This document shows positions 34,223-60,900 of a stretch of 64,000 nt of DNA, piece after piece. A program made the position numbers and the translations under genes. The notes under the pieces were generated by a model. That model was not told the origin of the DNA and did no database searches. It saw only the letters and a list, made by a program, of their open reading frames with translations. Source of the DNA: Ilex aquifolium. Taxonomy: Eukaryota > Streptophyta > Magnoliopsida > Aquifoliales > Aquifoliaceae. The number at the start of each line of letters is the position of its first letter. Position 1 is the first letter of the stretch. The stretch spans positions 31,541,635 through 31,605,634 of the forward strand of contig OX637405.1 in assembly GCA_951799425.1 (NCBI GenBank), read 5' to 3'.

Positions 34223-34231
34223 GAAAGGGTG

Positions 34232-36683
34232 GTGATGAACAACTGTAGAATATCCACATATATTTGTTTGGCAAATATCCATTTATAAGTTGGTACTTTT
34301 TCATGCATAGACATGAATTTGCAATGTTGTTCATTTGAAATAGATCCATGTGGGTTCGTTTGGTTAAAAAGAGAATAGTGGAAAATAGGAGAAGAGAAAA
34401 AAAAAAAAAAAATTTGGCATTTGGTAAGTAGGAATCAACAGTTTTTCGGAAAAAATAAATTTCCCGCATGATCAAATTTTTCTGCAATTGAGACTTTCTA
34501 TTTTGCCATAAAATCTACACGAATTTTTTTTTTTTTTTCCGTGAAACTTGCTATCTATTTCATTGTTTACCACTGCCCCTATTTTAACACACCACAACTC
34601 CTCTCAGTACTTATCTTTTCAGTCGACTAATCAAGGAAGACTACCTTTTTCATTTCTACACATCTTCTTAGCTGACTGATCAAGTAAATTTTTCTTCCAT
34701 CTCTTACTTTCTATCATTATTTTTTTTTTAATCAAACGGACCTATGAAAAAAATTGGTGATTCATCTTTACACAATATGTTAAACTACTTAATATAAAAA
34801 GGGTGGGATTTGTTTCATAAATAAATCGACACAAAATTAATTAAATATAATACAAAATGAGCAAAGCACGACTCTAATTTATTCCTAATCATCATTACTA
34901 ATCCTAACAATAGGCATGACAAATGAATGTTCGAGTAAGAGGCCATGCATGATTCATACTTCTTATATATTCACCTCTATTCTAGTCTTGAATAATCGAC
35001 CTCCCAACAAGTATCATGCCACATTTATATATGCTCCTTAATATCTTCAAAGTCTTGAGTTCTTTGTAAAATGTCATAATTATCTAATTATAATCCTTCA
35101 CATGCAGGCATCAGCAACAAATCCTAAAAAAAAGCAAAGCCTTCGACTTTCTATTTAACTTGTGAGGTATTCAGTACTCTAGTGGGCAGACACCATCATG
35201 AAATTCACCATCAATGGGTCCTCCAGCCTATAGCAGTGACACCCTTCAATTCTTGTATGGCAAAAAATGTTGAAGACAATGGCCACACTCATTGAGTGGC
35301 ATCACCCATCAATTTCTTTTAATTTTCTGGCGTGTTCTCAATGGATACAGATCCTTCGAATTTAATTTATTTCTCCCAAACAATTAATTCATATAAGTTT
35401 TACGATCATTCGATAGAATTCAATGAATTTGCATTAATTATTGAACTGAATTAAAGTTTAGAGGATCTAAATATGGGATCCAATCACAATTTAATTAATT
35501 GTGATTGGGTGGTTATACAAGACGAATTGAAATCCAACACGAGCTTGTTTGGTTCCTCATTCTATTTTTTTTGTCTTTTTTTTGTTACCCTATTTAATTC
35601 CACGAAATAAAAATGCAAAGTTAACTAAATAGAAAAAGGAGTGTATGTGCAGCCCTTACTCACATAATTCTTTATAATAGTCGGCGCTTCGCACGTAAAT
35701 TCATGCTTTGAGAGTAAATTTTCTGTGAATTCACTATCTTATTTTACAAAATTTGCGAATTCGTAATATTACTTACTTATATGCTTATTTATTATTATTT
35801 AAATTTTTATTTGAAAAGTATTGACCAATACATAAAGATACATATCAAATTAGAATAATATTTGTAACCTATAATTGCTATTTTAGGACCTTATAATTAA
35901 TATATATTTAAAAATTAAATAGTTTCTCATATAGTTGTACATGAAAATTTTTATATTTTATTTTTATTAACTTTTATGGGTTACTATTTATCGTGATGCA
36001 TATAATATGATGTTTTCAAGATACTCTCGCTCTCAAATATTTTTAAAGGATTTTTGTAGGTCAGTACACAATGTAGGATTTAATTTGGGTAAAAATCATT
36101 TGGGTAAAACTATTTATAAAGATGTCCTTTTTATTTGTGAATGCTAAATATACCCACGCGTAAATACTAAATGATGCAATCTCATGGGTTTGGAAATAAC
36201 CGGAATTCAAGAATCATTTTCATAAAATCCGGCCACTAAGATATCGCGCAAAACAGGGTGTTTGAAATTCAAACAAAAATTGCCATAAAATCCATGAGAT
36301 TTCAACCAAATTAAAAAACACAAATAATCGAAAATTGTGAGAACCTTTCGCCTGTGTATTGACTGTACATATGTTGGAGTACCATTGAAATCCGATTGTC
36401 GACTTTTTCAATTGTAATCGCCGACAATAAACAATGTGACATCACAGTGCAACAACACAATTAACACTTTTAAATGTGTAATTACATTTCTTGATTCCTA
36501 CAAAAACTAAATGCTATGTTTGACACAGTGTGACAACCATAGTGCGACATCACATAGTGTTTTTTAAGAACATGACAGTGTAACACCAGACGTTAAAATA
36601 GTAAAAGAACACCAGACGTTGAAGTAGAAGAAGAAGATATACGTTTAAAATTCTAATATCCTGATCTATTAAAATAGGAAACC
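34232..36683 (+). repeat. Tandem duplication, copy B, first part
   Basis: It starts GATGAACAACTGTAGAATAT, directly after the end of copy A. Order and spacing are kept up to the GTTGA target duplication at 36684-36688, where the Copia element interrupts it. It resumes at 54646. Confidence 0.85.
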
Positions 36684-38312: not shown

Positions 38313-41300
38313 CTAAGTTCTAACATGAGTCATATATACATCTCTAGCTATAGGCTTAGTTAAGGGGTCTGCAACCATCTGAGTTGTAGGTATGTGTTTC
38401 AAGATTACTTCTTTTTGTGCAATCATGTCTCCAATATAATCATATCTTATATCTATGTGTTTGGTTCTTCCATGATACTTAGGATCCTTAGCATAAGCTA
38501 ATGCAGCCATGCTATCACAATGAATTGTCACTAGGCCCAAGGAATGTGTGACAACTCCGAGATGTTGAAAGAACCTTCTTAACTAAACAGTTTCTTGTAC
38601 AACAGCAGAACAAGCCACGTATTATGCTTCCATGGTGGATAAGGATATGCATGATTGCTTTTTGCTACTCCATGTAATGGGCCCACCATTAAGTAAGAAA
38701 GCATATACTGATGTGAACTTGCGTTCATCTATATCACCACCCCAAACAACATCACTATAACCAACTATCTCGATACTGGTAGCATAACATATAATTTGAA
38801 GTCCTCTTGAGATATTTCGTAGTATTCTTTTGATTGCCTTCAAATGAGTTATTCTAGATTTGACGGAAAACGACTAACTAGGCCTATAGCATAGCAAATA
38901 TCGGGACGAGTACACATCATAGCGTACATTAAGCTACCTACAGCACTGGCATAGGGAACACAAGTCATCTGTTTCTTTTCCTCAAGAGACTTACGGTACA
39001 TCTTTAGGTTTAGGCTCTCGTCTTTCGCTACAGGAGTGTCTATGGGTTTGTAGTTATGCATTTGGAATCATTCAAGAACCTTATTAATATAAGTCTCTTA
39101 AGACAAACCAAGAAGCTTCTTAGAACGATCCCTTAGGATCTTAACTTCGAGCACATAACTTGCTTCGCCCAAGTCCTTCATCTCAAATGTTGAGGGAAAA
39201 CCACTTTTCAGTAGTAATAATCATCTCTTTATTATTTACAACCAATAAAATATCGTCAACATACAAAAATAGAATCAAGAAGCTATCTTTAGACCGTTTA
39301 ACATGCACACAATGGTCTTCATCGATCATCGTAAACTCATTAGAAGTGATAGCTCGATGAAACCTTAGATACCACTGTCTGGATGACTGCTTCAGGCCAT
39401 AAATGGATCGTTGGAATTTACACACTTTGTTCTCCTGACCCACCACCACGAAGCTTTTAGATTGATCCATGTAGATCTCCTCATCCAATTCTCCATTAAG
39501 AAATGCAGTTTTAACGTCCATTTGATATAGTTCTAAATCCAAATGTGCGACAATAGCTAGAATCATGCGAACGAGGCAAACCTTACAACTGGAGAAAATG
39601 TTTTCTCGTAGTCCACACCCTCTCGTCATTCATTGCAGCTATCCACTCATTATTAACAGGTGATGATAGAGCCTCTTTAATATTTTTAGGTTCAGCATCA
39701 TCATGTGGAGCAACCATGAAAGCTTCCCCTTCAATCTCAAAATGACGTCGAGGGATGGTTCCACGCTTGCTTCTACGTAACTCTGTGTTGTATGGATCTA
39801 TATCCATTAGAACTGATCCACCATTGAGTATATCGCTCCCACTATCCCTAGGAGATGACGAAACTATTTTCTCGATCTCAACGCGGTTAGTGGGTATATC
39901 TCTTTGGGGATCATCTAACTCATAGATTTCTATTCCTTTAGACACATCTCCTTTGCTAGGGAAATCCTCTTCAAGGAAAATTCCATCCCGTGACTCAATT
40001 TCAGTTACCCTTCCATCAAGTTGTTCACCTATAAACACAGCCCTTAGAGTGTTCAGAATAGCGGATGCAGATACACTTATTCCCTCTAGGACCTAACTTC
40101 TCATATTTATGAGAAGTATTGTGTAAATAAGTCGTTGAACCACATGGCCGTAAATTATTTAAGTCAGGTTTTGTGCGTGTCCATAAGTCATATGAGGTAG
40201 AAGGAACTGATTTAGAAGGCACTCGGTTAAAGATATAAGCAGCAGTCAATAAAGCATCTCCCCAATATGAAATCGGAAGATAAGCATGTGCCATCATAGA
40301 CCTAACCATATTAGTCAAGGTGCGATTTCATCTTTCCACTACACAATTTTATTGCGGAGTGTCAGGTATTGTCAATTGCCTGATTATTCCTTTTTTTTTC
40401 ACACAACTCTTTAAACTGTTCAAATAGATACTCGCGAACTTGATTGATTCTAAGAACTTTAATGTTATTATCTCGTTGATTCTCAACCTCTTTAATGTAA
40501 CGTTTAAAGCAATCCAATGCTTTGGACTTGTGAGAAATCAAATAGACATGACCGAAGCGCGTAAAGTCATCTATAAAAGTGATGAAATAGGATTCACCAT
40601 GTCTTGCCTTCACATTCATTGGGCCACATATATCTGAGTGTATTAATTATAATGGAATAGATGCTCTTTTGGCCTTACCAAATAATTTTCTAGTTGTCTT
40701 ACCTGCGAAACAATTTTCACATGTGGACAAGTTGATTTTTGCGAGTGGGCCCAAAAATCCCTCTCTAGCTAATCTATTCATTATGTCTTGCCCAATATGA
40801 CCTAATCAAGCATGACATCTAATAGAATCAACACTATCCATAGATGTAACATAAGAATAAGTTTCATTACTAGAATGATCAATATCTAATACAATAAAAC
40901 CATTTGTGGTATAACCTGATCCATAGAATGTCGTTCCCTTATAAATGCCAACATGCTGACCTTCAAAACGAAAAATAAAACCTAGTCTCATTAAGCTAGT
41001 AACTGACAACAAATTTAGTCGGATTCCTAGAGCATATAATACATCATGAAGGTATAGAGTGCGCCCGTGTCACAATTCCAGTTTGTATGTGTCAATCCCA
41101 AGCACATCTATACTAGTCTCGTTCCCCATGTAAATTCATTTGCTTCTAGCTGAAACTCGACGGTACTCCACAAATCCAAATCTGTGTCTAATGTGGTCTG
41201 TTGCTCCTGAGTCTACAATCCACGAATTAGAAGAGTGAGCAACAAAAAATTGACTAGTAACTAACAGTCAATGCGAGAGATAGAACTAGAGAGTACCTTC

Positions 41301-42123
41301 TTCGGCTCAGTGCATTCACGAGCGAAGTGACCCTTCTTGTTGCAGTTATAGTAAATCATGTTGGCTTTATTCTTCTTACTAGCTGTTTTACCATATTTGT
41401 GCTTGTTATAACTAGAGTGACCAGCCCTAGTTTGAGCATCAGACTTATTTCCATTGCTCTTGCGCTTGGACCCGAAGGTCTTGCGCGAGCCAACTTTAGC
41501 CACATAAGAGCTACTCTCACCTTTGATAGCCTCCAAACGCTCAGCCTCAAGCTCAAGGTGAAGCGTACATTCTCGAATGTTTTCACACTCTCATTATGCG
41601 TCATGTTTTGTTTCATATGCTCCCATGATGGTGGAAGAGAGCGAAGTACATCTTGAACTTGTTGTTCATTGGTCAACACATGACCAGCAACACCTAAATC
41701 ACGTATCATAGAGGTCATAGCCCTCAGATGTTGTTTCATTTTATGCTCTAACTTTTTTTGATACGAGTCAAACCTCATGGTCAAACCACAAAGTCTAACA
41801 AGAGAAGAAATACCAAACTTCTCTTTGAGGGCCTTCCATATGGCGTGAGTTGTGGAGTAATTCTCAAATTCAGGAATAAGGTCATCTTGCATGCTTGCTT
41901 GCATGGTATAGCGCGCAAGTCGATCCTTATTCTGCCAAGACTGGTAATCCTCTTGTTCATGGCGGGTTTGAAGTCGCTCAGGCTCTAGCAGCACAGAGTC
42001 AAGGGTATCCAAGACTTGTTGCTCATACATGACAAATTAAATCTTACGACGTCATATGTCATAGTTATTGCCGTTCAATTTGTCGCCTTTAGTTAATTCA
42101 GACACTATACTTTTAGTAGTCAT
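38313..42123 (-). pseudogene. Copia gag-pol polyprotein (broken)
   Basis: It starts at ATG 42121-42123 and ends at 38313. Gag (41356-42123) is cut by two early stops, where NNYDI is followed by a stop, and by a frameshift before the nucleocapsid part (41261-41536). The zinc knuckle there reads YNCNKKGHFAREC; its first cysteine is replaced by tyrosine. Integrase (40025-40620) keeps FIDDFTRFGHVYL, but the second catalytic Asp region reads LRINQVREYL, so that Asp is lost. Reverse transcriptase (38849-39629) keeps YVDDILLV. RNase H (38313-38843) shows HCDSMAALA and KHIDIRYDYI. At least eight stops or frameshifts preclude function. Confidence 0.9.
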
Positions 42124-43671: not shown

Positions 43672-43679
43672 GTTGATAT

Positions 43680-44253
43680 TGATGATGCACAAATTGGTTT
43701 TTGTGCACCACAGTCAAGTAAATAATATAAAATGCAATGAACAAACAATTAATGACAAATATGGCAAATAAAGGAGTAAAACAGAGAGATTTATAGTGGT
43801 TCGGCCGTGGCCTACGTCCACTTGGACTGGCAACGGTGGCCTTTGGTGTTATTTATTGATTAATAATCGTCACCGGAGCTACAGAGCTTTGAGGGAAAGA
43901 GGAGCAACGACAGTGTTGTGCAAGGGTAGGAGATGAGGTATTTTTGGGAGGCGTGCCCTAGATGGTGAGAGGGTTTTACATTTTATAGAGCTAGGATTTT
44001 TGAGGTGAGGCGGTGAGGCGGTGACGTGAGGGAGGGGTTTCCTAATTAGGTAGGGTTTCTCCGTGCGCCGCATCTCTTTCCTTCATACTCCAATTCCTTT
44101 GGAGGAGGGCCCCAGATGGGCTGGACTTGGATTTAGCCTTGGTGGGTCTTTGCACTTTGGGCTTCATTGGGCCTGTTGGGTCTTCATGAGTTTGGGTCTC
44201 TGATTACAATTGGGCTTCAACATGGAATTGGGCCTTTTGGGCCTGACCCATCA
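43680..44253 (-). repeat. 3' LTR of Gypsy element 2
   Basis: 574 bp. It begins TGATGATGCACAAATTGG and ends GGCCTGACCCATCA on the plus strand. It has one extra 8-bp GCGGTGAG unit relative to the other LTR. Confidence 0.93.
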
Positions 44254-44870: not shown

Positions 44871-44887
44871 TTTAAGAAACCCTAGGC

Positions 44888-44895
44888 TATAAATA
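44888..44895 (+). promoter_or_regulatory. TATA box of the antisense gene
   Basis: TATAAATA, in the context AGGCTATAAATAGAAGCC, lies 103 bp upstream of the ATG at 44998. It is a near-ideal plant TATA box on the strand opposite gag-pol. Confidence 0.7.
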
Positions 44896-44997
44896 GAAGC
44901 CTCCTTCCCCATTCTTGTCCATTTCATACATTAAGATTGACTCCCTTCTTGAAGCTCTTGGAGACCCAAGGTTATTTATTTGAGATTTGAGCATTGA

Positions 44998-47844
44998 ATG
45001 CTGGGATCAATGGAGAATGGAGAGAAAGAAGTACAAGCTCCCTTTGCCGCTGAGGAAGAACCGAGCATTGAAGGCGGTGGGTATTTTGCCGCCGAACACA
45101 ATGGAAGCATCAGCTTGAATGGGCGAATGTTCAGGGGTACTCCTGAGGCCGAGAGCCTCTCTCCTTCGAATCTGGCTTGTGGACCGTGCCCAGGACGTAT
45201 AGGAGATCAGGCTCATGTTTCGGCCATGGGCGAGCAGCGTGGAGTAAGGGGGCTGGACGCCACTTGCGCAGGGAAAAGGGGGCTGTCCAGCGCGCCAGGC
45301 GTGGGGCGGTCAGACCCGGCTGGTGAGGCTGTACCGCCTGGGCGAGCTGCTCCTGCGGCCAGTGCTGGGTACTTGGGGGGTGCGCCAGGCGCTGCTGTGC
45401 GCGTGGGAGCTGTCCTGGACCACTCGGGCGAGCTGGGGCATCCAGGCGTGCAGATGGGTTTCAGCAGTGCAGCAGGTTTCAGCAGTGCAGCAGGTTTCAA
45501 CAGTGCAGCAAGTTTCAGCAGTGCAGCAGGTTTCAGCAGTGCAGCAGGTTTCAGCAGTGCAGCAAGTTTCAGCAGTGCAGCAAGTTTCAGGCGTGCAGGG
45601 GGGTCAGGCGTGCAAGGTTCAGGAGTGCAAGGTTCAGCCGTGCAAGGTTCAGGAGTGCAAGGTTCAGCCGTGCAAGGTTCAGGCGAGCCAGTACCGGGCT
45701 CTACTGCCGCCTATTCCCCGGGTGTTCAGACTGTTCTTGCTGCCGATAATGCTTATGGGTTTGCCCCATTTAGCGACCAAAAGGGGTCAGGTAACTCCCC
45801 ACCTGCTGGGTTTTCTTCGTTAGGCGATCAGAGGGGATCCGGCACCTCCTCGCGCCTTCGCTCCCGAAAGCATAAAAGTAAATTTGCTCTTGATGAGGAT
45901 GCTTCCAAGGTAGGTGGTCTTTCTAGCTCCCTTGTTACTGATGATGATATCTCTAGGATTATTTCTGTTTATCATATTCCTCCGACCGTGTTGTGTCGCC
46001 GGGCTGAGAGAGGTGAGCATGCGAGTGACGACTCCTCTGGTGACATTGTTGTTTATGAGGAGATGCTCGAGGCCGGGCTTAGGTTCCCAATATCTCATTC
46101 TATTTGTGATATCTTAAATTATTTTTCTCTGACACCTGGCCGGCTGGCTCCAAATGGTTGGAAAGTCTTACTAGCCTTTTTGGAACTATGGAAGAGAGTG
46201 CACTACGAAGATGCTTCTGCTACTGAGTTTAGTGCTGCTTATCACCTGAATGAGACTCCTGCTCCCAACCGGGGCTGGTACTATTTCTTTCCGAGGGGAG
46301 GCAAGTTGATCACCGGGTTGTCCTCCAGTTGTCACAGTTGGAGGTCTCATTTTATATTTGTTGGCGGGGAGTGGGCTTCGGTCATGGATAGAGCCCTGGT
46401 TCCATCCCAGTGGATTGCCCCAAAGAAAATTGGTATGTGCCATATATTCAATCTTCCCTTGGCTCATTCTTTGTAGATTGTGTACCCACCAAGTTCCTTG
46501 CAGGTTGTCCCGTGCTTACTAAGGATCAAGAGCGGAAGCTGGAAACCGTGAGAACTCATCCTACGAGAGACTTAGGGGATCTATTGCTCAATGGTGGGGT
46601 CAAAGGCCCTCCTCCGACTCGTGCAATGGCCACTACTCCCTCCTTACAGTCTGGCGGCTCCTCTTCAAAGAGGAAGGGTGAGTTGATTCTTGAATGCCCT
46701 TTTATTTTACTTGGTGTCCCGTGAGTCTAACACTGCATTTTCTTTTCAGCTATATATAAAGGAGTGATTGGGTCTCGTCTCTCCAGCAGGAGTCCTCCTC
46801 CTTCCAAGGTGGCAAGGGTAAATGATGCCCCCCAAGTGATTTCGGCGATGGGCGAGGCTGACACGTCTCAAGCATCTCCTTCGTCAGATCCTCAGACGTG
46901 CCTTCATCCGGTGACCCCTCCGGTTGCTGCTACTCCAGAGACTTCCTCACCGGGCACTTCTCCTCTGTCTTCTCCTCCCGTGGGAACTTCTGCAGAGGTA
47001 CCTTCTTGGTCTCGCCCCATGCTGGGCAACCCGGCAGTTATTAGAGAAAGGCTTGGGAGGTTTGTATATATCCCTGAGGTTAACCAGATGAACACTTTGA
47101 GCACCGAGAGGGTCGTCAACATGTACTTGGAGGGTCTGGCTCAGGTAAGGGTTTGTTATTCCCTATTCTTTCGTCCTTTCTCATTTTTATCATACCTTTG
47201 TCTTTTATTTAATTCAGGTCTCGACTATGTCTCTCTGCCTGTCTTCGAGAGCCTATGCCCATGGTACCCTGAGGCAGGAACATGTCGCCGTCCAAGAGGA
47301 ACTTCTTGCCGCTCAAGGGAAGATTGCTGAGCTTGAAGCTGCTGACGGGGTTTCTAAGAGCGAGCTTGCGCTGGCCTATGAGAAGGTATCCAGATTTGAG
47401 TCCGAGCTTTTGGCATCCCGCGAGAGGGATGCGCTCAGAGAAGACGAGCTAGCCGTGGCGCGCGAGGGGGCAACTAAGCTCGAGGTTGAGCTTTTGGCGA
47501 CCTGTAGGAGGAACGCGCTCAGGGAGGCTGAGCTTACAGTGACCCGCGAGAGGGTCGTGCTCAGAGAGGCAGCTTTGGAGGTAGAGTTGAAGGCGACTCA
47601 CGAGAGAGCTTCGCAGGCTGAAGAGAAGGCTGCAACAGCTGAGAGGGACTTGGCGAACGGCCTTGCGGATGCCTTCATCGATGGTTATGATGAGCTTCGA
47701 GGGAGGATTTCCGCCGCTCATCCTGATATTGATGTTTCAGGTTTCTTGCCTGGGGAGTTTGATGAAGATGAGGGAGGATCTGGCGAAGACGAGGATGATG
47801 CGGAAGGTGGCCAGGAGGAGGTGGATGATCGTGAGAGTAGCTAG
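44998..47844 (+). CDS. Four-exon antisense accessory gene of a Tat-type retrotransposon
   Basis: Proposed exons 44998-46432, 46477-46677, 46750-47144 and 47218-47844 keep one frame (phases 1, 1, 0) and give 885 aa. The introns are 44, 72 and 73 nt with GTATGT, GTGAGT and GTAAGG donors and TTTGTAG, TTTTCAG and AATTCAG acceptors. Exon 1 has a Gly/Ala/Ser-rich half with two minisatellites, a basic SRLRSRKHKSK stretch, then the conserved domain (EEMLEAGLRFPISHSICDIL ... NGWKVLLAFLELW ... FIFVGGEW). Exons 2-3 are Pro/Ser-rich; exon 4 is a coiled coil of Glu/Ala/Leu heptads ending in an acidic tail. The domain resembles the plant-transposon-protein family of Tat antisense ORFs. Its function is unknown. 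It converges with pol, leaving 250 bp between stops. The 44-nt first intron is short for a plant. Confidence 0.75.
45457..45690 (+). repeat. Two in-frame minisatellites in exon 1 of the antisense gene
   Basis: Seven full 18-bp units (GGTTTCAGCAGTGCAGCA type, coding GFSSAA or SFSSAA) and one partial unit at 45457-45600 are followed by six 15-bp units (coding GSGVQ or GSAVQ) to about 45690. Both unit lengths are multiples of three and keep the frame. Confidence 0.9.
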
Positions 47845-47926
47845 AGTATTGGGGACTTTTGATTTTCTCTCTTCTTTTTTTTTATTTAGGAAAGACGGTT
47901 CATAACCTTGTTTTTGTACTCCTTTA

Positions 47927-47938
47927 AAATTAAATGAA
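47927..47938 (+). terminator. Polyadenylation-type signal of the antisense gene
   Basis: AATTAAATGAAAG lies about 85 nt after the stop at 47844, following a T-rich stretch, before the convergent pol end at 48095. Confidence 0.35.
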
Positions 47939-48094
47939 AGAATGCATTTGGAGTAAAATGTAGAGTTTTATTCATTCATTGCAATACGGGGTGGTAACCC
48001 CAAAAGTACACTGAATGTTGGGCAATAACCCCCAAAAAAGGTAGAAAATAAAACCAAGTCCCCACTGTCTATCACTTTTAACTCTCTCAGGGTG

Positions 48095-51000
48095 TCATTG
48101 GTAGTACCTCTTCAAATATTCAGCATTCCACGGATGGAGTAAGATTTTTCCTTCAAAGTTCTGGATCTTGTAGGTGCCTGGCCTCACTACCTCTGTTATG
48201 AGGTAAGGTCCTTCCCAATTTGGTCACAGTTTCCCTTCGCGTGCATCCTTTGTGGCGAGGATCACTTTTTTGAGGACCAGGTCCCCTAGTTGGAAGGAGC
48301 GAGGCTTCACCCTCGAATTGTAATACTTCGCCATGCGTCTTTTATACTCTGCGTTGCGAACTGTAGCCATCTCCCTTGCCTCCTCCACTAAGTCGAGGTT
48401 GATGCGGAGTCCTTCTTCGTTAGTGATGGGGTTGTGGTGTTGGACCCTTAGAGAGTGTACTCCTATCTCGACTGGGATGACTGCCTCAGTTCCAAAGGCG
48501 AGGGAAAAAGGGGTCTCCCCAGTAGGAGTTCTTGGCGTGGTTCGATAAGCCCACAATACGCTTGGTAGCTCGTCCACCCAAAGACCCTTCGCTCTTTCGA
48601 GTCTTGTCTTTAAGTTACGGAGCACGGTTCTCACCATGACCTCTGCTTGTCCATTTGTCTGTGGGTGTGCTGGACTGGAGTGAGGTTGTTTTATCTGAAG
48701 GTCGGAGCAGAAAGAGTTGAGTAGTTTATTGTCGAATTGCTTCGCGTTGTCGCTGACGATGGCGTGGGGCATCCCGAAGCGGCAGACCAGGTTCTTCCAG
48801 ATGAAGTCTTTCACCTTTGCATCTGTTATTCTTGCTAAAGGTTCAGCTTCTGCCCATTTGGTGAAGTAGTCGACTGCCACCACCACGAATTTGCACTGTC
48901 CCTTGCTTAGAGGTAAGGGGCCTAGTATATCAATGCCCCATCTGGAGAAGGGCCATGGACTTATGATAATTGTTAGCTCCTCCGGTGGTTGTCTAGACAC
49001 AGTTGCAAAGCGTTGGCACTTGTCGCACTTTTTGGAGAATTCTTGGGCGTCCTTTGCCATGGAAGGCCAGAAGTAGCCTTGTCTGAGTGCCTTGTAGGCA
49101 AGGGAACGCCCTCCAGAGTGGTTCCCGCAGATCCCTTCGTGAATCTCTCGCAGGGCATATTGAGCTTCTTCTGGTGCAAGGCACCGTAGCAAAGGCAAGG
49201 AATAGCCTTTCTTATATAAGGTATCCTGCATGACGGTGAACTTGGAGGCCCTCATCCTTAGCTTCCTGGCCTCTAACGGATCATCTGGTAGTACACCTTC
49301 TTGGAGGTATGCCCTTATTGGGGTCATCCAACTCGACTCGATTGATGTACAGTTGACATTTGTGGTCACTATGTCCAACTTGCTTGGTTCAAACTGATGA
49401 CCGATGAATGATGGTCCTGGAGGGGCTTCGGAAGAGGAGGCGAGCCTGGCGAGAGAGTCTGCCGCCATGTTGTCTTCCCTTGGGATGTGGTAGATTTGGA
49501 AGTACTGGAACTTAGCGGTCAAAGCTTTTACTATGGCGAGGTACTCTTGCATCTTGGCACCCTTTGCCTCAAATTCTCTCTTCACTTGATTGACTATCAG
49601 CTGAGAGTCACTATAAGAAAGAAGGTGTTGGGCTTCCATTTCTATTGCCAACCTTAGGCCAGAGAGAAGGGCTTCGTATTCTGCCTCATTGTTGGAGGCA
49701 AAGAAGTGAAGCTTTACTGCATACTTTAAGAGGGTTCCGTCCGGACTAATCAGAATAAGGCTTGCTCCTCCTCCTCCACTGGTCGAGGAGCCATCGACGT
49801 AGAGTCTCCATAGTGGTGGAGAGGAGGGCATGGAAACTCTAACTTCAGAGGGGATGCCAACTCCTGAGGGGGTCTGGGCACCATCCCTCGCTCCTGAGGG
49901 GGTCTGGGCGCCTTCCCTCGCTCCTGAGGGGGTCTGGGCGCCTTCCCTCGCTCCTGAGGGGGTCTGGGCGCATTCCCTCGCTCCTGAGGGGGTCTGGGCG
50001 TCATCCCTCGCTCCTGAGGGGGTCTGGGCGCCTTCGCTCGCTCCTGAAGGGGTCTGGGCGTCATCCCTCGCTCCTGAGGGGGTCTGGGCGCATTCCCTCG
50101 CTCCTGAGGGGGTTTGGGCGTCATCCCTCGCTCCTGAGGGGGTCTGGGCGCCTTCCCTCGTTCCTGAGGGGTCTGGGCGCCTTCCCTCGCTCCTGAGGGG
50201 GTCTGGGCGCCTTCCCTCGCTCCTGAGGGGGTCTGGGCGTCATCCCTCGCTCCTGAGGGGGTCTGGGCACCTAAAGGTGGCTGGGCAGGCGAGGTGAAAA
50301 GCCCGTTGCTCTCCTTTTCTGCTGGAGTGAAGTCAGCAATGAAATCCGCTACTGCTTGTGCTTTGATGGCCGTCTTTGGCTGGTATTGAATGTCAAATTC
50401 GCCAAGTTCCACTGCCCATTTAAGGAGCCTTCCGGATACGTCCGGTTTTCCCAAGACCTTTTTAGAGGTTGGTCTGTGACGACAACAATGATGTGGCTTT
50501 GAAAGTAGTGTCGTAGGCGCCTTGCCGCTGAGATCAAGGCGAGCGCTAGTTTCTCAAGTACAGAATATCTGACTTCTGCCCCCCTGTATGCTCTGCTCAC
50601 ACAGTAGATAGGTTTTTGCACTCCATCACTGTTTCTGACAAGAACTGAGCTCACTGCCGATGAGGAGGCAGACAAGTATAAATGCAAGGTTTCTCCTGGA
50701 GCGGCATGCGAAAGGAGAGGTGGTGTAGCTAAGTAGGCCTTGAGCCTTTGGAAAGCTTCCTCTGCCTCCTGTCCCCACTCGAAGGCTTTTCGGAGAATCT
50801 TGAAGAATGGGAGACATTTGTCTGCAGATTTGGAGACGAACCTATTGAGTGCTGCGATTCTCCCATTGAGGCGTTGAAGCTCCTTAGTTGAGGAGGGGGA
50901 CTTCATGTCGAGGATAGCCTTGATCTTATCGGGGTTTGCCTCGATTCCCCTTTGATTGACCATGAAGCCTAAAAATTTTCCTGACCCCACGCCAAAGGCG

Positions 51001-52377
51001 CACTTCTCAGGATTGAGCTTCATGTGGTAGGACTTCAGGACATTGAAGGTTTTCTGGAGGTGATCGATGTGGTCAATTGCTACGAGACTTTTCACCAACA
51101 TATCATCCACGTATACTTCCATCGTTCGCCCAATTTGAGACTCGAACATCTTGTTCACCAACCGTTGGTAGGTTGCTCCTGCGTTTTTTAGTCCAAAGGG
51201 CATGACCCTGTAGCAGTAGGTCCCCTTTGGAGTAATGAATGATGTCTTCTCCTGGTCCGGAGGGTACATGCTAATCTGGTTATACCCAGAATATGCATCC
51301 AGGAAAGTGAGCAACTCATGCCCCGCGGTTGCGTCAATGAGGATATCGATCCGTGGTAACGGGTAGCTGTCTTTTGGGCATGCCTTGTTAAGTTATGAGA
51401 AATCAACGCAAAGGCGCCACTTCCCATTAGTCTTAGTGACCATCACCACGTTGGAGAGCCATTCAGGATATACTACTTCTCTGACGGCCCTGTTGTCTAC
51501 TAGCTTCCCCACCTCTTTGTCCATAGCTTTGGCCCTTTCAGTGGAGGTGCCCCTTAGCTTTTGGCGAATAGGCTTGTGGCGTGGGTCAACATTGAGTCGG
51601 TGTGTGACCACTTCTGGGTCGATGCCCTCAAGGTCTGCATGTGACCATGCAAAGACGTCCATGTTACTTTTCAAAAAGTCTATCAGCGGGCCAACCAGAT
51701 CTTCAGAGAGGGAAGAGCCAACGTATACTCTTCTGTCTGGGTGATCTTCATCCAGAACCACGGGGGCGAGCTCCTCCACCGGTTCTCCTCTTTCTATAGT
51801 AGAGTCATCCCTCGGGTCCAGGATTTCAACTTGCAAAGCTTCCTGCGGCTTCCTGGTCTTCATAGAGGAGACATAGCATTCCCTAGCTACTACCTGGTCT
51901 CCTCTGACCTCTCCAACTCCGTTAGGGGTTGGAAATCGGAGGATGAGGTGATAGGTGGAGGGCACGGCTCTTAATGTGTTGAGAGCGGGTCGCCCTAATA
52001 TGATATTATAAGCTGATGGACAGTCTATCACCAGAAAGTTGACCATGACTGAGGAGCTTCGGGGCGCTGCTCCGACTGTGACAGGTAGGGTGATGGACCC
52101 TAGGGGGTACACCTTCTCCCCCGAGAACCCAATGAGGGGAGATCTGATGGATTGCAGCCTCTCCCTGCCCAAGTTGAGCTTGTCAAAAGCTTCTGCAAAT
52201 AGGATATCCGCAGAGCTGCCGCTGTCCACTAGGATTCTGCGCACTTGGAAATTGGCAACCGTCATGGTGAGCACCAGGGGGTCGTCATGGGGGTGCTGAA
52301 TTCCTTCTAGGTCCTTATCTGAGAAAGATATAACCTCATTGGTGCCTTGCCTGGGCGCCTTGGACGGGCGCCCTTCG
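48095..52377 (-). pseudogene. pol of Gypsy element 2 (recently broken)
   Basis: Domains in order on the minus strand: protease (ILVDSGSSADILF, about 52245), reverse transcriptase (51450-50560, YVDDMLVKS), Ty3-type RNase H (about 50750-50460, active site worn: LYLSAS), a repeat linker (50280-49855), archaeal-type RNase H (49810-49430, YVDGSS, NNEAEYEAL, SDSQL, AADSLAR intact), and integrase (HHCC finger about 49140-49020; core with GIDILGP, VSDNAKQF, NGQAEV). The lesions are few: a frame change at the gag-pol junction, a stop at 51390-51392, one-base losses near 50464 and in the 29-bp repeat copy at 50161, and TGG-to-TGA at 48224-48226. After that the frame runs to 48095, ending LKRYYQ-stop. 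With nearly identical LTRs these breaks must be recent. Confidence 0.88.
49861..50277 (-). repeat. 30-bp minisatellite in the pol linker, 14 copies
   Basis: Units of CTCCTGAGGGGGTCTGGG plus 12 bp start at 49861 and recur every 30 bp. The copy at 50161 is 29 bp (one G missing). On the pol strand they encode a ten-residue Gly-Ala-Gln-Thr-Pro-type repeat, and after the short copy an Arg-Pro-Pro-Gln-type repeat in another frame. The array lies between the two RNase H domains. The open frame on the plus strand through it is a by-product. Confidence 0.92.
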
Positions 52378-54012
52378 TCAAGGCATGGCGTGGGCCTTCA
52401 TGGCAGAGAGGGACTCTCCACCTCCTGCTAGTCCTCCTGAGATGGTGTGAATTTCCCCAACGGGATGTTTCTCTTCCTGGTTATGGGGTGGCGGCGGCGC
52501 CTGTCCTCTACCAGCAACATAATGGCGTAGGTGGCCACGTTGAATGAGATCTTCAATTTGTCTTTTGAGTTCATAGCAGTCGTCGGTGTCGTGCCCATGG
52601 TCGCGGTGGAAGCGGCAATGCTTGTTAGGATTTCTGCGATTGGGAGGAGACTTCATCTTCCCTGGCCACTTCACTGCGGGGTCATCCTGGATTTGGAATA
52701 GGATGTGCCCGAGATCGGCATTGAGGGGTGTGAAGGCTTGTCGATCCCTCTGATGGGCTGGACCTAACCGGTCTCTGACGGGAACCTTCTCTGTTCTGCT
52801 ATGTTTGTTGCTGGCCTCCTTCTTGTCGTCTCTCTCTCGCTCTTTCCTCTTGTCCCCAGATCTGGAGGACTCACCTCGCCTGGCCCTTGTGATGTCCTCA
52901 GCGTTTATATATTTCTGGGCCTTTGCTAGCAACTCGGGCATGCTCTTTGGTGGGCGCTTCATTACTGAGAAGAGGAAGCTTGACGAGCGGAGACCTCCCA
53001 GGAAGGCGGTCATCGTCACTTTGTCGTCGGGTTCATCAACCTCAAGTACCTCCTCGTTAAAACGAGTGAGGTAGCTCCTCAGGCTCTCCTCACGGTCCTG
53101 CTTTATACTAAGCAGGTGGGTGACTGGCTTCTGGTGGCGACGCCCCCCAATGAAATGTGACACGAATGACCTGCTTAGCTCAGCAAATGAGGCAATGGAT
53201 GACGGGGAGAACTTAGCAAACCATTGTCGGGCGGATCCTTTTAATGTGGTTGGGAACGCTCTGCACATGATTTCGTCTGGGACGTTGTGCAACTGCATCA
53301 GAGTTTTGTAGGTGTCGAGATGGTCTAGTGGGTCCTTTGCTTTTGTTCCATCAAAGACCTCAACAGAAGGCATTTTGAACTTTTGGGGAAGAGGGTAGTT
53401 TGCTACGTCAGGCTTGAAAGGAGTGTCTGTTCGCCGTACAAGATAGTCCACTGTTTCTGGTCCTTGCGCCTTCATGGCATTGAAGACGTCACCTAGCTGG
53501 TTTTGCACTTCCTTGATTTTCTCATCCCAAAGGTTGGGGGCTCCTCTGTGATGATCATGAAAGTGACTCCCATGCTCCACGCTTTGGTTCTCGCCCTCGT
53601 CCTCTTGGAGAGGAGTGTCCTCACCATGGGAAGCAGGGGGAGGGGGTGGAGGTCCTTCATGATGAGCCTCCCTGTGTAGAGCCTCCCTGTGTAGGGCGCC
53701 CAGGGGGACTCCAAAAGGGGCGCCCAGCCCTACGAGGGCGCCTAGATATGGAGCAGCAGGGCGTGGAGCTCCTTGACCCCAAGGACGTGGGGCTCCTCCA
53801 AGCTGTGCTCCGCCGAGTTGTGCCCCTCCTCGTCCGACGAGCATAAGTTGTAGCATCTGTTGATTTTGGGCCACCAGCTGCTGCATGGTCTCCAACATTT
53901 GTTGAGGATTTGGAGCCGGAGCATTCGGCACATGGTTGGCAGGCGGAGGAACCTCCTCCTCTCGTGGAGGATTGTTCTCATGCTGGTTCATGGATCTGGT
54001 AGTGATCGCCAT
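52378..54012 (-). CDS. Gag polyprotein of Gypsy element 2
   Basis: An intact 544-aa frame from ATG 54012. The N-terminal quarter is Gln/Pro/Gly-rich with short repeats (GGAQLGGAQL; HREALHREA). The capsid-like core includes VEVFDGTKAKDPLDHLDTYK (about residues 216-235), CRAFPTTLKGSARQWF and FVSHFIGGRR, then LLSIKQDREESLRSYLTRF, all typical of plant Gypsy gag. A Lys/Glu/Arg-rich stretch and a variant zinc finger (CRFHRDHGHDTDDC, about 485) sit near the C-terminus, where RNA binding is expected. It forms the particle that packages the element RNA. It starts 67 bp after the 5' LTR. Its stop precedes pol, which is in a different frame; whether that is natural or damage is unclear. Confidence 0.88.
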   Translation of the reverse strand: MAITTRSMNQHENNPPREEEVPPPANHVPNAPAPNPQQMLETMQQLVAQNQQMLQLMLVGRGGAQLGGAQLGGAPRPWGQGAPRPAAPYLGALVGLGAPFGVPLGALHREALHREAHHEGPPPPPPASHGEDTPLQEDEGENQSVEHGSHFHDHHRGAPNLWDEKIKEVQNQLGDVFNAMKAQGPETVDYLVRRTDTPFKPDVANYPLPQKFKMPSVEVFDGTKAKDPLDHLDTYKTLMQLHNVPDEIMCRAFPTTLKGSARQWFAKFSPSSIASFAELSRSFVSHFIGGRRHQKPVTHLLSIKQDREESLRSYLTRFNEEVLEVDEPDDKVTMTAFLGGLRSSSFLFSVMKRPPKSMPELLAKAQKYINAEDITRARRGESSRSGDKRKERERDDKKEASNKHSRTEKVPVRDRLGPAHQRDRQAFTPLNADLGHILFQIQDDPAVKWPGKMKSPPNRRNPNKHCRFHRDHGHDTDDCYELKRQIEDLIQRGHLRHYVAGRGQAPPPPHNQEEKHPVGEIHTISGGLAGGGESLSAMKAHAMP

Positions 54013-54079: not shown

Positions 54080-54645
54080 TGATGATGCACAAATTGGTTT
54101 TTGTGCACCACAGTCAAGTAAATAATATAAAATGCAATGAACAAACAATTAATGACAAATATGGCAAATAAAGGAGTAAAACAGAGAGATTTATAGTGGT
54201 TCGGCCGTGGCCTACGTCCACTTGGAATGGCAACGGTGGCCTTTGGTGTTATTTATTGATTAATAATCGTCACCGGAGCTACAGAGCTTTGAGGGAAAGA
54301 GGAGCAACGACAGTGTTGTGCAAGGGTAGGAGATGAGGTATTTTTGGGAGGCGTGCCCTAGATGGTGAGAGGATTTTACATTTTATAGAGCTAGGGTTTT
54401 TGAGGTGAGGCGGTGACGTGAGGGAGGGGTTTCCTAATTAGGTAGGGTTTCTCCGTGCGCCGCATCTCTTTCCTTCATACTCCAATTCCTTTGGAGGAGG
54501 GCCCCAGATGGGCTGGACTTGGATTTAGCCTTGGTGGGTCTTTGCACTTTGGGCTTCATTGGGCCTGTTGAGTCTTCATGAGTTTGGGTCTCTGATTACA
54601 ATTGGGCTTCAACATGGAATTGGGCCTTTTGGGCCTGACCCATCA
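54080..54645 (-). repeat. 5' LTR of Gypsy element 2
   Basis: 566 bp, over 99% identical to 43680-44253. Confidence 0.93.
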
Positions 54646-55237
54646 GATATAATAAAACAAATTCCATGAAAAATAGAATTGTCAAACTCAACAATCCATG
54701 AATTATAAAAAATGGTATTTCTATTAAAATAAAAACATGTTGATAAAATAAAACAAATCCCATGAAAAAAGAAACTATCAAATTAAACAGTCCATAAATT
54801 ATAAAAAAAGTATTTCAGTAAAAAAATAATTTAAAAATTATCATTGTGTATTTAGACACAATACATTTTCAACTAATAATATTTATCTACGATACATTTT
54901 CAACAAGGTATTTTTTCGCAAATATGTAATTTATGTGGTACCTATCCACAATTTTCTATATTTTTAAATTTTGTCACTTTTACACTCCCATTCTCGCTCC
55001 CGCCTCCACTTCCGCTCTATTTAATTTACTTGCAGCCTTCTTCAATGTACCTTCTCTTAGGTGCTCTAGTGGACTAGCCCTTGTAAAGCAAGCTAGAAAT
55101 GCTATTTAATTAATCCAATGAAAGAAAGTGACGTAGGGAAGTGAGTAGAAAGAAAGGTACAAGGAACGAAAATGGAAAATGAAAACAAATAGTTGATTTG
55201 CGCATAAATACCAATTTAAATTCCTATTCTAGGTATG
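54646..55237 (+). repeat. Tandem duplication, copy B, second part
   Basis: GATATAATAAAACAAATTCC resumes the sequence left at 36683 and matches copy A from about 33711 to 34222. It then runs past the copy A boundary into the dispersed repeat below, which shows that copy A's right edge is the duplication junction. Confidence 0.8.
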
Positions 55238-57946: not shown

Positions 57947-60900
57947 TCCACACTCTTTTATGTGTTTGTCTTGTTAATAGAGTTCTGAATATTTTGTAGT
58001 GAGTTTTATATTACCAATAGAGTATTTTATACTTACAATTTTCCTTCACAATTGTTGCTTTCATTTGGCGCCCCATCTTTTGTTTTGTGGTTATTATCAT
58101 AATATCTGTGGTAATATGCAAGGGCGGAGCAGGATTTTTGTTTATCCCGGCTAAGCTAAGCATTCATACGACTAACAAAATACAAATGTAAACTCATAAA
58201 CATATATTCAATAATACAAATGTAAACTCATAAACACTTACTAAAGAAATTGGATTATTCGATCCTTCCTAGAACAAAAGACATCTATTATTGAATCTGT
58301 ATCGATTGCTTCCGTTATTTCTCTTTCAATGTAGACAACTAACGAAGAGTACTCATATTCCATCTTGTTACGAAGAGTACTTTTGACATGTTTCATGGCT
58401 GAAAATGCTCTTTCTGAAGTTGCCGTAGAAATGGGAAGAGTTAAAATAAGACGAATCAACCTATCAATCAAATTGTAGGACTCTGCCTTATTTGTTTTTA
58501 CTAAACCACGACATAATTCTGAAATTGTAGACATACTTTGAAACCTCTCATGACGAACCACATCAAATTGATAATGATCCAGTTGACATTTCAAATGATG
58601 CATGACTTGTCTATTAAAATCAGCTGCATAAAACTTCTCAGCAAGTAAACAAATGCGATCAGGATTGAAAGATTTAAAGTTGTCCCGAGGATCTAAAGCA
58701 GAGCTGAGCATAAGCAATTTTATTGTCTCTTCATTGAATCTACTATGTAACTCTTCTAACTGATGATCAATCGTAGCATTAAATATGTCCATGTGATAGT
58801 GATGATCAACTGTAATGTTATCATTTTGTTGATGAGACTAAATTCATTGCATTCAAAATATCTAATGATTTATGCTGCAATGTCCGACAAAATATATCCG
58901 TAATCCCCATAATCTTGTGCATAAGATGCAATATGAATATGAAATCGAAGGACTTCATTGCCATTAAAGAACCATCAGCTTCCCCACGAATTGTATTTGA
59001 AGATCCTTTGTTAACTATACATTCAAACACACTAATGATAGCATCATACATATCTATCAGACCGCAAATGGATTCAAAATGTGAGCTCCAACGAGTAGTA
59101 CCAGCTCGATGCAAAGTACCCATCTGATTAGCCTCTTTACCAGTCTCTCGTTCACCACTAGCTATCCCCCTTTCAATCTCAGTAGCTTGGGTAGATCGCA
59201 GTTCTGTATGACGCTTAGGAGAAGTACTAATAAGATTGACAATGCATGTCAATTTGGAAAAGAATTGCTATATTGAAATCTCATCTTCAACAGTTGCAAC
59301 TAATGCAAGTTGTAAACGATGAGCAAAACAATGAACATAGTATGCATACTCACAATCATTGCAGAACAAAGCTTGCAATCCATTAAATGCATCACGCATG
59401 TTGCTAGCACCATCATATTCCTGACCTCGTAAATCTCGAATGTGCAAATTGTGTCGAGTAAGAACTTTTGATATTTTCTTCTTAAGAGTTAAAGAAGTGA
59501 TATCTTTAACATGCACAATCTCAAAAAATCTCTCCTTCAAAAAACCTTGAACATCAACAAATCTCAAAACAATTGTCATCTGTTCTTTATTTGATGCATC
59601 ATTTGCTTCATCAACCAAAATACAAAACTTGGCATTTCCAACTTCTTCACGGATTTTTTCTCTTACTTTAGTAACTAGAATATGCAAAATATCTTTTTGG
59701 ATCATAGGAGACGTATACTTTGCATTTCCTAGAGCTTTCTCTAAGACAACATCATTTTTCTCAACATTCAACTTTGTCATCAAACTAATTATCTCAATTA
59801 GATTACCACGGTTCTTTGACATTACAGATTCATCATGACCTCTCAAGGCACATCCCTGTAAAGTAAGTCATTGAACACTATCAATGGTAGCCTTAAGACG
59901 CAATCGATTTCTCTTTATTTCTTCTGAACTTTGAACATTCATAATTTTATCAATGTGCACTGATATATTCTTCAACGCCTCAACATTTCTCACAACATTA
60001 TTGTGTGTGGAAGCAAGACCTCCCATATGTGACAAGAAAACACATTTGGCCCCATTATTCACTCTCTTCCAGCTACTAAAACCATCAACGGTAAATGCAG
60101 GATGTAGAGGTTCACGACCTTAAAAAACAAAGCATGGAAAGCAAAATGCCGCATCTTTTGAAATAAAATACTCTAGCCATGGAAATTTTTTGTACCAACT
60201 TTCCTGAAATCTTCGATTTTGAACTCCAGTTTTAGTCCTCGGATACTCAGCCAAGATAGGTTGATTTGGTCCCCACTTTATATAAACACCTCTAACTTCA
60301 TCTTGATTATAAGCAGGATGTTTTCATATCGGAATACGCAATGCGGGATCTCGTTCAAGTTCATTCTCATCAAAAAGAATCCTTAGAACTTTTGTTTGAG
60401 GTTAAGGACCTTGAGGTTCAACAACCGTAAGAATCATAGGAACATCAACACTTGTTGATGTTTCTACTAGACTCAAAGGTTCAAGAGTAGAATTTGATGT
60501 TTCTTCTCCACTTTTCTTTTTGAAGAATGAAAAAATTGTTTTTGCTCTTTTTCGTTCTTGATTTTCCATCCTAATAAAGTAGAGAAGGGCTGAAAATTAG
60601 AGAAACAAACCAGCATAGGTCTCCAATATCCAAAGTAAATATGCAGAAAGACAAATAAGGGTAGTAAAAATGTGGGAACAAAGTTTTTTTTTTCGTACAT
60701 TCCAAATGTTTTGATCATCAGTTCACTAAGCCATAAAAGTCTATGGTAATCCAGAAAATGTAGAGACTAAAACAAAGCCATAAAAGTCTATGGTTGTCCA
60801 GAAAATGTAGAGACTAAAACAAAGCCATAAAAGTACACGCACTGATTTTCAATTACTCAAAGCTTGTGCTTCTTTTGGTTGATCAGGGAAAAAAAATTGT

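Follow-up and report, generated by a model that had tools for sequence, protein, structure and literature searches.

We analysed 64,000 nucleotides of the Ilex aquifolium genome (contig OX637405.1, positions 31,541,635 to 31,605,634; hereafter the window, numbered from its first letter), which contain a Ty3/gypsy retrotransposon on the minus strand with both of its long terminal repeats (LTRs). On the opposite strand, between pol and the 3' LTR, this element almost certainly carries a genuine four-exon accessory gene that is under selection. An original prediction had placed this gene antisense to gag-pol; the orientation is indeed opposite, but the two do not overlap, as pol ends at about 48095 and the gene at 47844. 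It had also proposed three GT-AG introns that keep one frame over 885 codons. The frame is open as proposed, but we revise the acceptor of intron 1, giving a predicted frame of 876 codons with intron phases 1,1,0. The features of the gene model are as follows.

44877..44886, plus strand: AAACCCTAGG motif just upstream of the TATA-like box (AAACCYTAGG in the leader stretch of 36/40 copies)
44888..44895, plus strand: TATA-like box TATAAATA (TATAWADA in the leader stretch of 39/40 copies)
44998..45000, plus strand: first ATG, the start originally predicted (ATA in 6/8 alignable copies)
45010..45012, plus strand: in-frame ATG common to the eight copies with an alignable leader, from the alignment
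44998..46432, plus strand: exon 1, with low-complexity repeats (45457-45685) and the TRP28 domain
46048..46194, plus strand: match to PF04195, Transposase_28 (TRP28), in exon 1 (E=7.6e-10)
46433..46503, plus strand: intron 1 as revised, 71 nt (earlier version 44 nt, ending at 46476)
46504..46677, plus strand: exon 2, with revised start
46678..46749, plus strand: intron 2, 72 nt here, 66-74 nt in 39/40 copies and 25 nt in the decayed copy L047
46750..47144, plus strand: exon 3, Ser/Pro-rich (by eye), with a KRK motif at the exon 2-3 junction
47145..47217, plus strand: intron 3, 73 nt here and 72-77 nt in the copies
47218..47844, plus strand: exon 4, with two long helices and an acidic tail

The splice dinucleotides are conserved across genomic copies more than expected by chance. 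From 111 first-look candidates, 40 copies were scored, and the 39 besides the window copy were aligned over the core of the gene (45940-47950). At the originally predicted sites, donors in these 39 copies were GT in 116/116 comparable cells and acceptors AG in 112/117 (75/78 for introns 2 and 3). The background retention of other GT dinucleotides was 0.79 for exonic (n=90) and 0.89 for intronic ones (n=11); for AG it was 0.88 (exonic, n=145) and 0.99 (intronic, n=3 only). The five most divergent copies kept 14/14 donors and 13/15 acceptors, with backgrounds of 0.53 (exons) and 0.64 (introns) for GT and 0.57 for exonic AG; the two intronic AG available gave 1.0. Lengths were also compared. The exon 1 core measures 493 nt in 36/40 copies, and the lengths of introns 2 and 3 vary. 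Relative to the window, net exon length was unchanged in 77 cases, changed by a multiple of three in 62 and by another number in 17 (n=156); the corresponding counts for introns were 66, 19 and 32 (n=117). Counted as distinct indel types, with decayed copies included, exons had 22 multiples of three and 17 others, and introns 2 and 7.

A 44-nt intron, as first proposed for intron 1, is unusually short for a plant. In two distant loci, L051 and L052, the intron 1 acceptor lies 17 bases ahead of AAGGATCAAGA, and the equivalent position in the window is 46502-46503 rather than 46475-46476. AG is present at 46502-46503 in 40/40 copies, against 38/40 at 46475-46476, and the revised intron is 71 nt long in all 40. 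The 27 bases between the two acceptors also lack a coding pattern, with no excess at third positions (0.02, 0.14 and 0.09 at positions 1-3, compared with 0.11, 0.07 and 0.14 in the rest of exon 2). For these reasons we prefer the downstream acceptor, and intron 1 most likely ends at 46503. Since both acceptors keep the frame, alternative use is possible.

The same intron structure can also be read in loci far beyond these copies. Six distant TRP28 loci were picked, non-randomly, by their differing open-frame lengths from 150 listed PF04195 hits. Identity to the window in the TRP28 region is 27-29% for L048, L049, L050 and L053, and 67-68% for L051 and L052. In the first four, introns can be drawn at the three corresponding positions: each is 70-93 nt long with GT-AG borders, the phases are again 1,1,0, and removing the introns leaves 774-794 codons in an open frame. 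The splice sites of these four loci were placed by eye, using open frames and conserved splice signals. L052 has the same phases in a frame with stops, so that phases 1,1,0 occur in 5/6 loci, and L051 keeps all three sites, with a frameshift in exon 3 that changes the phases to 1,1,2. The conceptual proteins of L048 and L050 are 22% (across 599 columns, E=4.5e-17) and 23% (across 585 columns) identical to that of the window, and in L048 the similarity extends through all exons. Judged by eye, all six loci have in common a KRK-like basic motif, an exon 3 rich in Ser and Pro, and an exon 4 that is charged, poor in proline and acidic at its end. Ahead of this end, five compared proteins have the motif PD-L/I-D, with SDID in L051 and PNID in L052. 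Two scans of viral contigs found no relatives. A further question is whether the gene was recently captured from the host, or is a nested insertion, and plays no part in the element. Introns and a promoter of its own are typical of host genes, but in sibling copies the gene occupies the same position, flanked by pol and the LTR edge, and the introns match at distant loci. Moreover, the genome has 5,837 loose PF04195 candidates (150 were scored, every one above the cut-off), and antisense TRP28 open reading frames (ORFs) are published in all but two of 63 recent clusters of the Retand lineage of Ty3/gypsy elements (Vicient 2025, PMC11963269). Recent capture is therefore extremely improbable.

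The original prediction implied selection on the protein, which is borne out by the codons. Maximum likelihood (ML) codon models were fitted to the 18 intact copies of the 40, excluding the 22 with a stop in the core; in the fits with omega=1, kappa was fixed at its estimate. The ratio of nonsynonymous to synonymous substitution rates (dN/dS) was 0.23 for the TRP28-encoding exon 1 (twice the log-likelihood difference, 2dL, 99.7), 0.43 for exon 3 (2dL 20.4) and 0.50 for exons 2-4 jointly (2dL 44.9), against 1.10-1.75 in the two other frames. The three-intron structure common to the distant loci points the same way. A joint codon model of exon 1 and exons 2-4 gave 0.41 and was not relied on, as the parts have different histories. 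With 36/40 copies, decayed ones included, omega was 0.25, 0.69, 0.57 and 0.85 for exons 1-4. We also used NG86 on 36/40 copies, with four decayed copies dropped. Between eight pairs from different subfamilies, exon 1 ranged over 0.07-0.22 and RNase H/integrase over 0.11-0.25, with exons 2-4 at 0.25-0.57; the values within groups W, M and N were 0.54, 0.22 and 0.34 for exon 1 and 0.18, 0.54 and 0.48 for RNase H/integrase. The ML values are preferred, because NG86 ignores transition bias and is biased low. Constraint on the TRP28 exon is about equal to that on RNase H/integrase; it is clear in exon 3 and weak in exons 2 and 4.

It could be argued that the antisense RNA alone matters and that its reading frame is incidental, as non-coding antisense RNAs exist in other retroelements (PMC7264820). 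We consider this very improbable, given that dN/dS is well below 1 solely in the coding frame, that intron phases are identical and that protein similarity is detectable at 22% identity. Together, the conserved introns and the constraint show that the protein matters to the element.

The conserved domain that had been noticed in the protein is TRP28, which scores 39.3 bits in the window copy, above the gathering threshold of 26.2, and 50.5 and 46.6 bits in two relatives. Conserved columns reach beyond the PF04195 match to the end of exon 1. The low-complexity stretch of this exon (45457-45685) is encoded by 18-bp and 15-bp tandem arrays, and the N-terminal region that contains them aligns poorly in many copies. 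At the other end of the protein, the acidic tail is as originally described, with 18 D/E among the last 45 residues. Fold prediction for exon 4 gave helices at residues 2-41 and 47-167 (about 47221-47340 and 47356-47718) followed by the loose acidic tail, with a mean predicted local distance difference test score (pLDDT) of 85.7 and 116/208 residues at 90 or above. The proposed coiled coil needs correction: long helices are predicted, but neither of two periodicity tests detected a heptad signal in the window copy. Heptad windows covered 0 residues there (shuffle mean 19), and its hydrophobic periodogram peak was matched by 296/300 shuffles. Heptad windows also covered 0 residues in L048, and 48 in L050, a value reached by 3/100 shuffles. 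The periodogram peak was reached by 22 of 300 shuffles in L048 (period 3.48), 67 in L050, 89 in L051 and 229 in L052. L050 and L048 show weak signals, one in each test.

The TATA box of the original prediction is present at 44888 (TATAAATA), 635 bp inside the internal region of the element, and by eye it sits in one alignment column. Its conservation is less distinctive: mean identity to the window is 0.89 over 44885-44894 but already 0.87 just upstream, and 0.66 downstream in the leader. The conserved unit is this block rather than the TATA-like box alone. A scan for sigma-70 promoters and terminators was set aside as inapplicable to a plant gene. An in-frame start codon exists as predicted, but probably not at the position first given. 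Eight copies, including the window, align base for base in the leader (the remaining 32 have other leaders). Six of them (L010, L012, L014, L021, L030 and L042) have ATA at 44998, while these six, L009 and the window all have ATG at 45010, which is the probable ancestral start.

The element that carries the gene is bounded by LTRs with the ends TGATG...CATCA and by a 5-bp target duplication (GATAT, at 54646-54650 and 43675-43679). Its LTR identity had been put above 99%, and the pair indeed differs by 4 substitutions in 566 aligned sites, with one 8-bp gap besides. Its parts are listed below.

54080..54645, minus strand: 5' LTR, 566 bp, aligned with 43680-44253
52378..54012, minus strand: gag ORF (PF03732, E=2.6e-16)
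48095..52397, minus strand: pol region, from its reading frames, broken by stops and frame changes in the window copy, with RVT_3, RNase_H, Integrase_H2C2 and rve domains
43680..44253, minus strand: 3' LTR, 574 bp

The pol domains come from a scan of 48225-49831, with the reverse transcriptase part lying outside it; no chromodomain was found in the same stretch, the part after the stop being outside the scan. The element has a 3.84-kb spacer from the end of pol (about 48095) to the 3' LTR, LTRs of 566 and 574 bp and an internal region of 9.83 kb. All of these lie inside the published Retand ranges (pol to 3' LTR 2.9-6.6 kb, LTR 315-1194 bp, internal region 7.4-12.9 kb; PMC11963269), and, as in Retand elements, TRP28 is encoded by an antisense ORF that follows pol and precedes the 3' LTR. 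Judged by sizes, spacer and antisense TRP28 gene rather than by reverse transcriptase phylogeny, the element appears to fit the Retand lineage. Between 44254 and 48223 there is no closed minus-strand ORF of at least 120 aa, so the antisense frame is not the shadow of a sense gene.

Several further observations concern pol. In the window copy it has stops at 51393-51395 and 48224-48226 (minus strand), yet the antisense gene is fully open; the second stop, in the integrase tail, is missing from 34/37 other copies read there. The region separating reverse transcriptase from RNase H contains, at 49861-50272, a tandem array with a 30-bp unit repeated 13.8 times, which is open in frames on both strands. 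About 120 nt past the pol stop, the sense strand has GAATGAATAAAA, with AATAAA near 47970. This hexamer occurs somewhere in the 257-nt stretch 48096-47840 (minus strand) in 22/38 copies, and near variants (e.g. AATGAAA) are common among the rest. The stretch is a possible early end of the gag-pol mRNA, before it meets the antisense gene.

The copies also have a mosaic history. In the L024-like group (12 copies, including the decayed L029), identity to the window is only 70-78% in exon 1 but 88-100% in exons 2-4, except for the lost end of L029; the switch lies in or near intron 1, at about 46430-46460. L043-L046 show the reversed pattern, with 82-94% identity in exon 1 and 63-81% in exons 2-3. 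These opposite patterns indicate that the TRP28 exon has been exchanged between subfamilies, and the joined frame is open in 8/12 L024-like copies. In group W, RNase H/integrase differs at 0.34 of synonymous sites and exon 1 at 0.02, a mismatch that implies that elements are mosaic beyond intron 1. The subfamilies defined by the antisense gene (L009-L047, groups W, M and N) do not match those defined by pol.

The original prediction implied that the antisense gene was exceptional. Antisense TRP28 ORFs are, however, a published lineage hallmark, and the presence of the gene is thus expected in this lineage; it is the conserved four-exon intron structure that seems new. The holly gene lies on the same strand as the Retand antisense TRP28 ORFs (PMC11963269), encodes the same domain and, like them, is located between pol and the 3' LTR; the sizes of its element fall in the published ranges, and the spacer likewise has tandem arrays. 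The difference is that the Retand paper treats the output of ORF Finder as separate ORFs (104 of them antisense, including some that have Smc-like or Mis12 hits) and never uses the word "intron" in its main text, whereas the pieces in holly join up as the exons of a single gene with a predicted spliced transcript. A 2020 review had called for a search for antisense and spliced transcripts (PMC7264820), and one from December 2025 describes plant LTR retrotransposons as generally intron-less, with exceptions including Ogre and EVADE. Ogre is likewise a plant Ty3/gypsy element with introns, but there the intron belongs to the sense gag-pol transcript, and only some of the transcripts are spliced (PMC6317226, PMC12786077); unlike it, the introns of the holly element are antisense and cannot be lost via genomic RNA. 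HBZ of human T-cell leukaemia virus type 1 is also an antisense-strand retroelement gene from a spliced transcript (PMC1459196). However, its transcripts begin in the 3' LTR and encode a basic leucine zipper (bZIP) factor, while our TATA-like box is internal; a scan of three stretches, which did not include exon 2, gave no bZIP match with an E of 1 or less. The titles and abstract beginnings in our literature search described no spliced antisense gene for a plant LTR retrotransposon.

On balance, we lean towards the view that Retand elements generally carry a single antisense gene of four spliced exons (with a TRP28 head followed by a basic motif, a Ser/Pro linker, a long helix and an acidic tail), of which the reported SMC-like and other helical ORFs would be exons. 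The antisense strand would let a retroelement keep a fully intron-bearing gene without splicing control, and the TRP28 exon would be swapped at intron 1 by recombination between subfamilies, much like exon shuffling in hosts. As a gene model for a very abundant, unexplained plant protein family, the holly gene, with a TRP28 exon constrained much like RNase H/integrase, is precise and testable, and it shows how introns can be retained by a retroelement; annotation by single ORFs would split the antisense gene and misname its parts.

What might the protein do? A functional parallel is gene23 of Grande (2013, as cited in PMC7264820), likewise an antisense accessory gene between pol and the 3' LTR, which is transcribed from its own promoter and encodes a nuclear protein; in holly, the corresponding TATA-like box and KRK motif were read from sequence alone. 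We envisage that an internal promoter with the TATA-like box at 44888 drives antisense transcription, and that splicing out the three introns yields an mRNA for a protein of about 870-885 residues. In order, this protein would have a low-complexity N-terminus, TRP28, the basic KRK motif, the Ser/Pro-rich linker, a long helical rod and the acidic tail. Retrotransposition would leave the introns in place, since they have no splice signals on the strand that makes up the genomic RNA. The protein would then enter the nucleus and benefit its own element by acting on the chromatin or DNA of that element, either promoting transcription or countering silencing. A nuclear function that serves the element is reasonably probable, and the complete account, in which a spliced antisense mRNA encodes an accessory protein that works in the nucleus, is the explanation that we consider, with some reserve, to be the best overall; its transcription-promoting or anti-silencing version is tentative. 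We favour a helping nuclear role because of the constraint, the published nuclear relative and the retention of TRP28 in defective elements: by our own count, it is present in all 15/63 table rows without GAG, AP, RH or INT in PMC11963269, the text of which itself counts ten defective clusters.

Two other nuclear roles can be imagined. The protein could serve integration, bringing the pre-integration complex into the nucleus or steering it to target chromatin. This was proposed in PMC7264820 and would suit both the nuclear Grande protein and the basic motif and long helix seen here, but a separate nuclear promoter would seem to offer no obvious route into the particle, and we think it unlikely. 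Alternatively, a nuclear factor, or antisense RNA together with such a factor, could hold down the element's own family. Antisense transcripts may feed silencing by double-stranded RNA (PMC7264820), and HBZ is a precedent for an antisense retroviral gene. Yet constraint close to that of RNase H/integrase, and the retention of TRP28 in gag- or pol-defective clusters, are both easier to explain if the gene helps its carrier, and where all copies share a repressor, selection for it on any one of them should be weak. Self-limitation is thus less favoured than a helper role, and quite unlikely in itself.

Several points weigh against our account of a spliced, element-serving nuclear gene. The gene model was read from DNA alone, and we infer splicing and promoter use in cells, as well as any DNA contact, its target and the direction of its effect. 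Reverse transcription of the antisense mRNA would leave a copy without introns, and such copies were therefore sought as proof of splicing; there were no matches, at up to three mismatches, for the earlier first, revised first or third junctions (the second was outside the search), and the unspliced control gave 24. The original prediction had named neutral dN/dS and frame loss in most siblings as outcomes that would tell against it: dN/dS is not neutral, yet the spliced core is interrupted by one or more in-frame stops in 22/40 copies, which is what decaying insertions would be expected to show. Constraint is weak in exons 2 and 4 singly (dN/dS 0.60 for the revised exon 2, 2dL 4.0; 0.77 for exon 4, 2dL 3.3), and NG86 in the wrong frames, at 0.71-1.18, is a less clean control than ML. 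The six distant loci were chosen as PF04195 hits irrespective of LTR-element context, and the block with the TATA-like box is barely more conserved than its upstream flank. For TRP28, a fold predicted from the single window sequence reached a pLDDT of 38 and was not used for fold searches, and a profile of seven TRP28 sequences matched one chain among solved structures at E=1.7, which is no credible relative. With neither a modelled fold nor a solved relative, DNA binding by TRP28 therefore rests on published prediction. Finally, two Retand clusters have full gag-pol without TRP28, which would make it dispensable there (PMC11963269).

The element is flanked by other repeats. To its left, 31718-36586 contains direct repeats about 2.8-3.0 kb apart and 85-94% identical, which suggests a tandem duplication or nested elements. 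Closer to it, minus-strand ORFs at 39183-42030 resemble pieces of a Ty1/copia polyprotein, and to its right, minus-strand ORFs at 58241-59846 resemble pieces of a hAT transposase (both by eye, with no search made).

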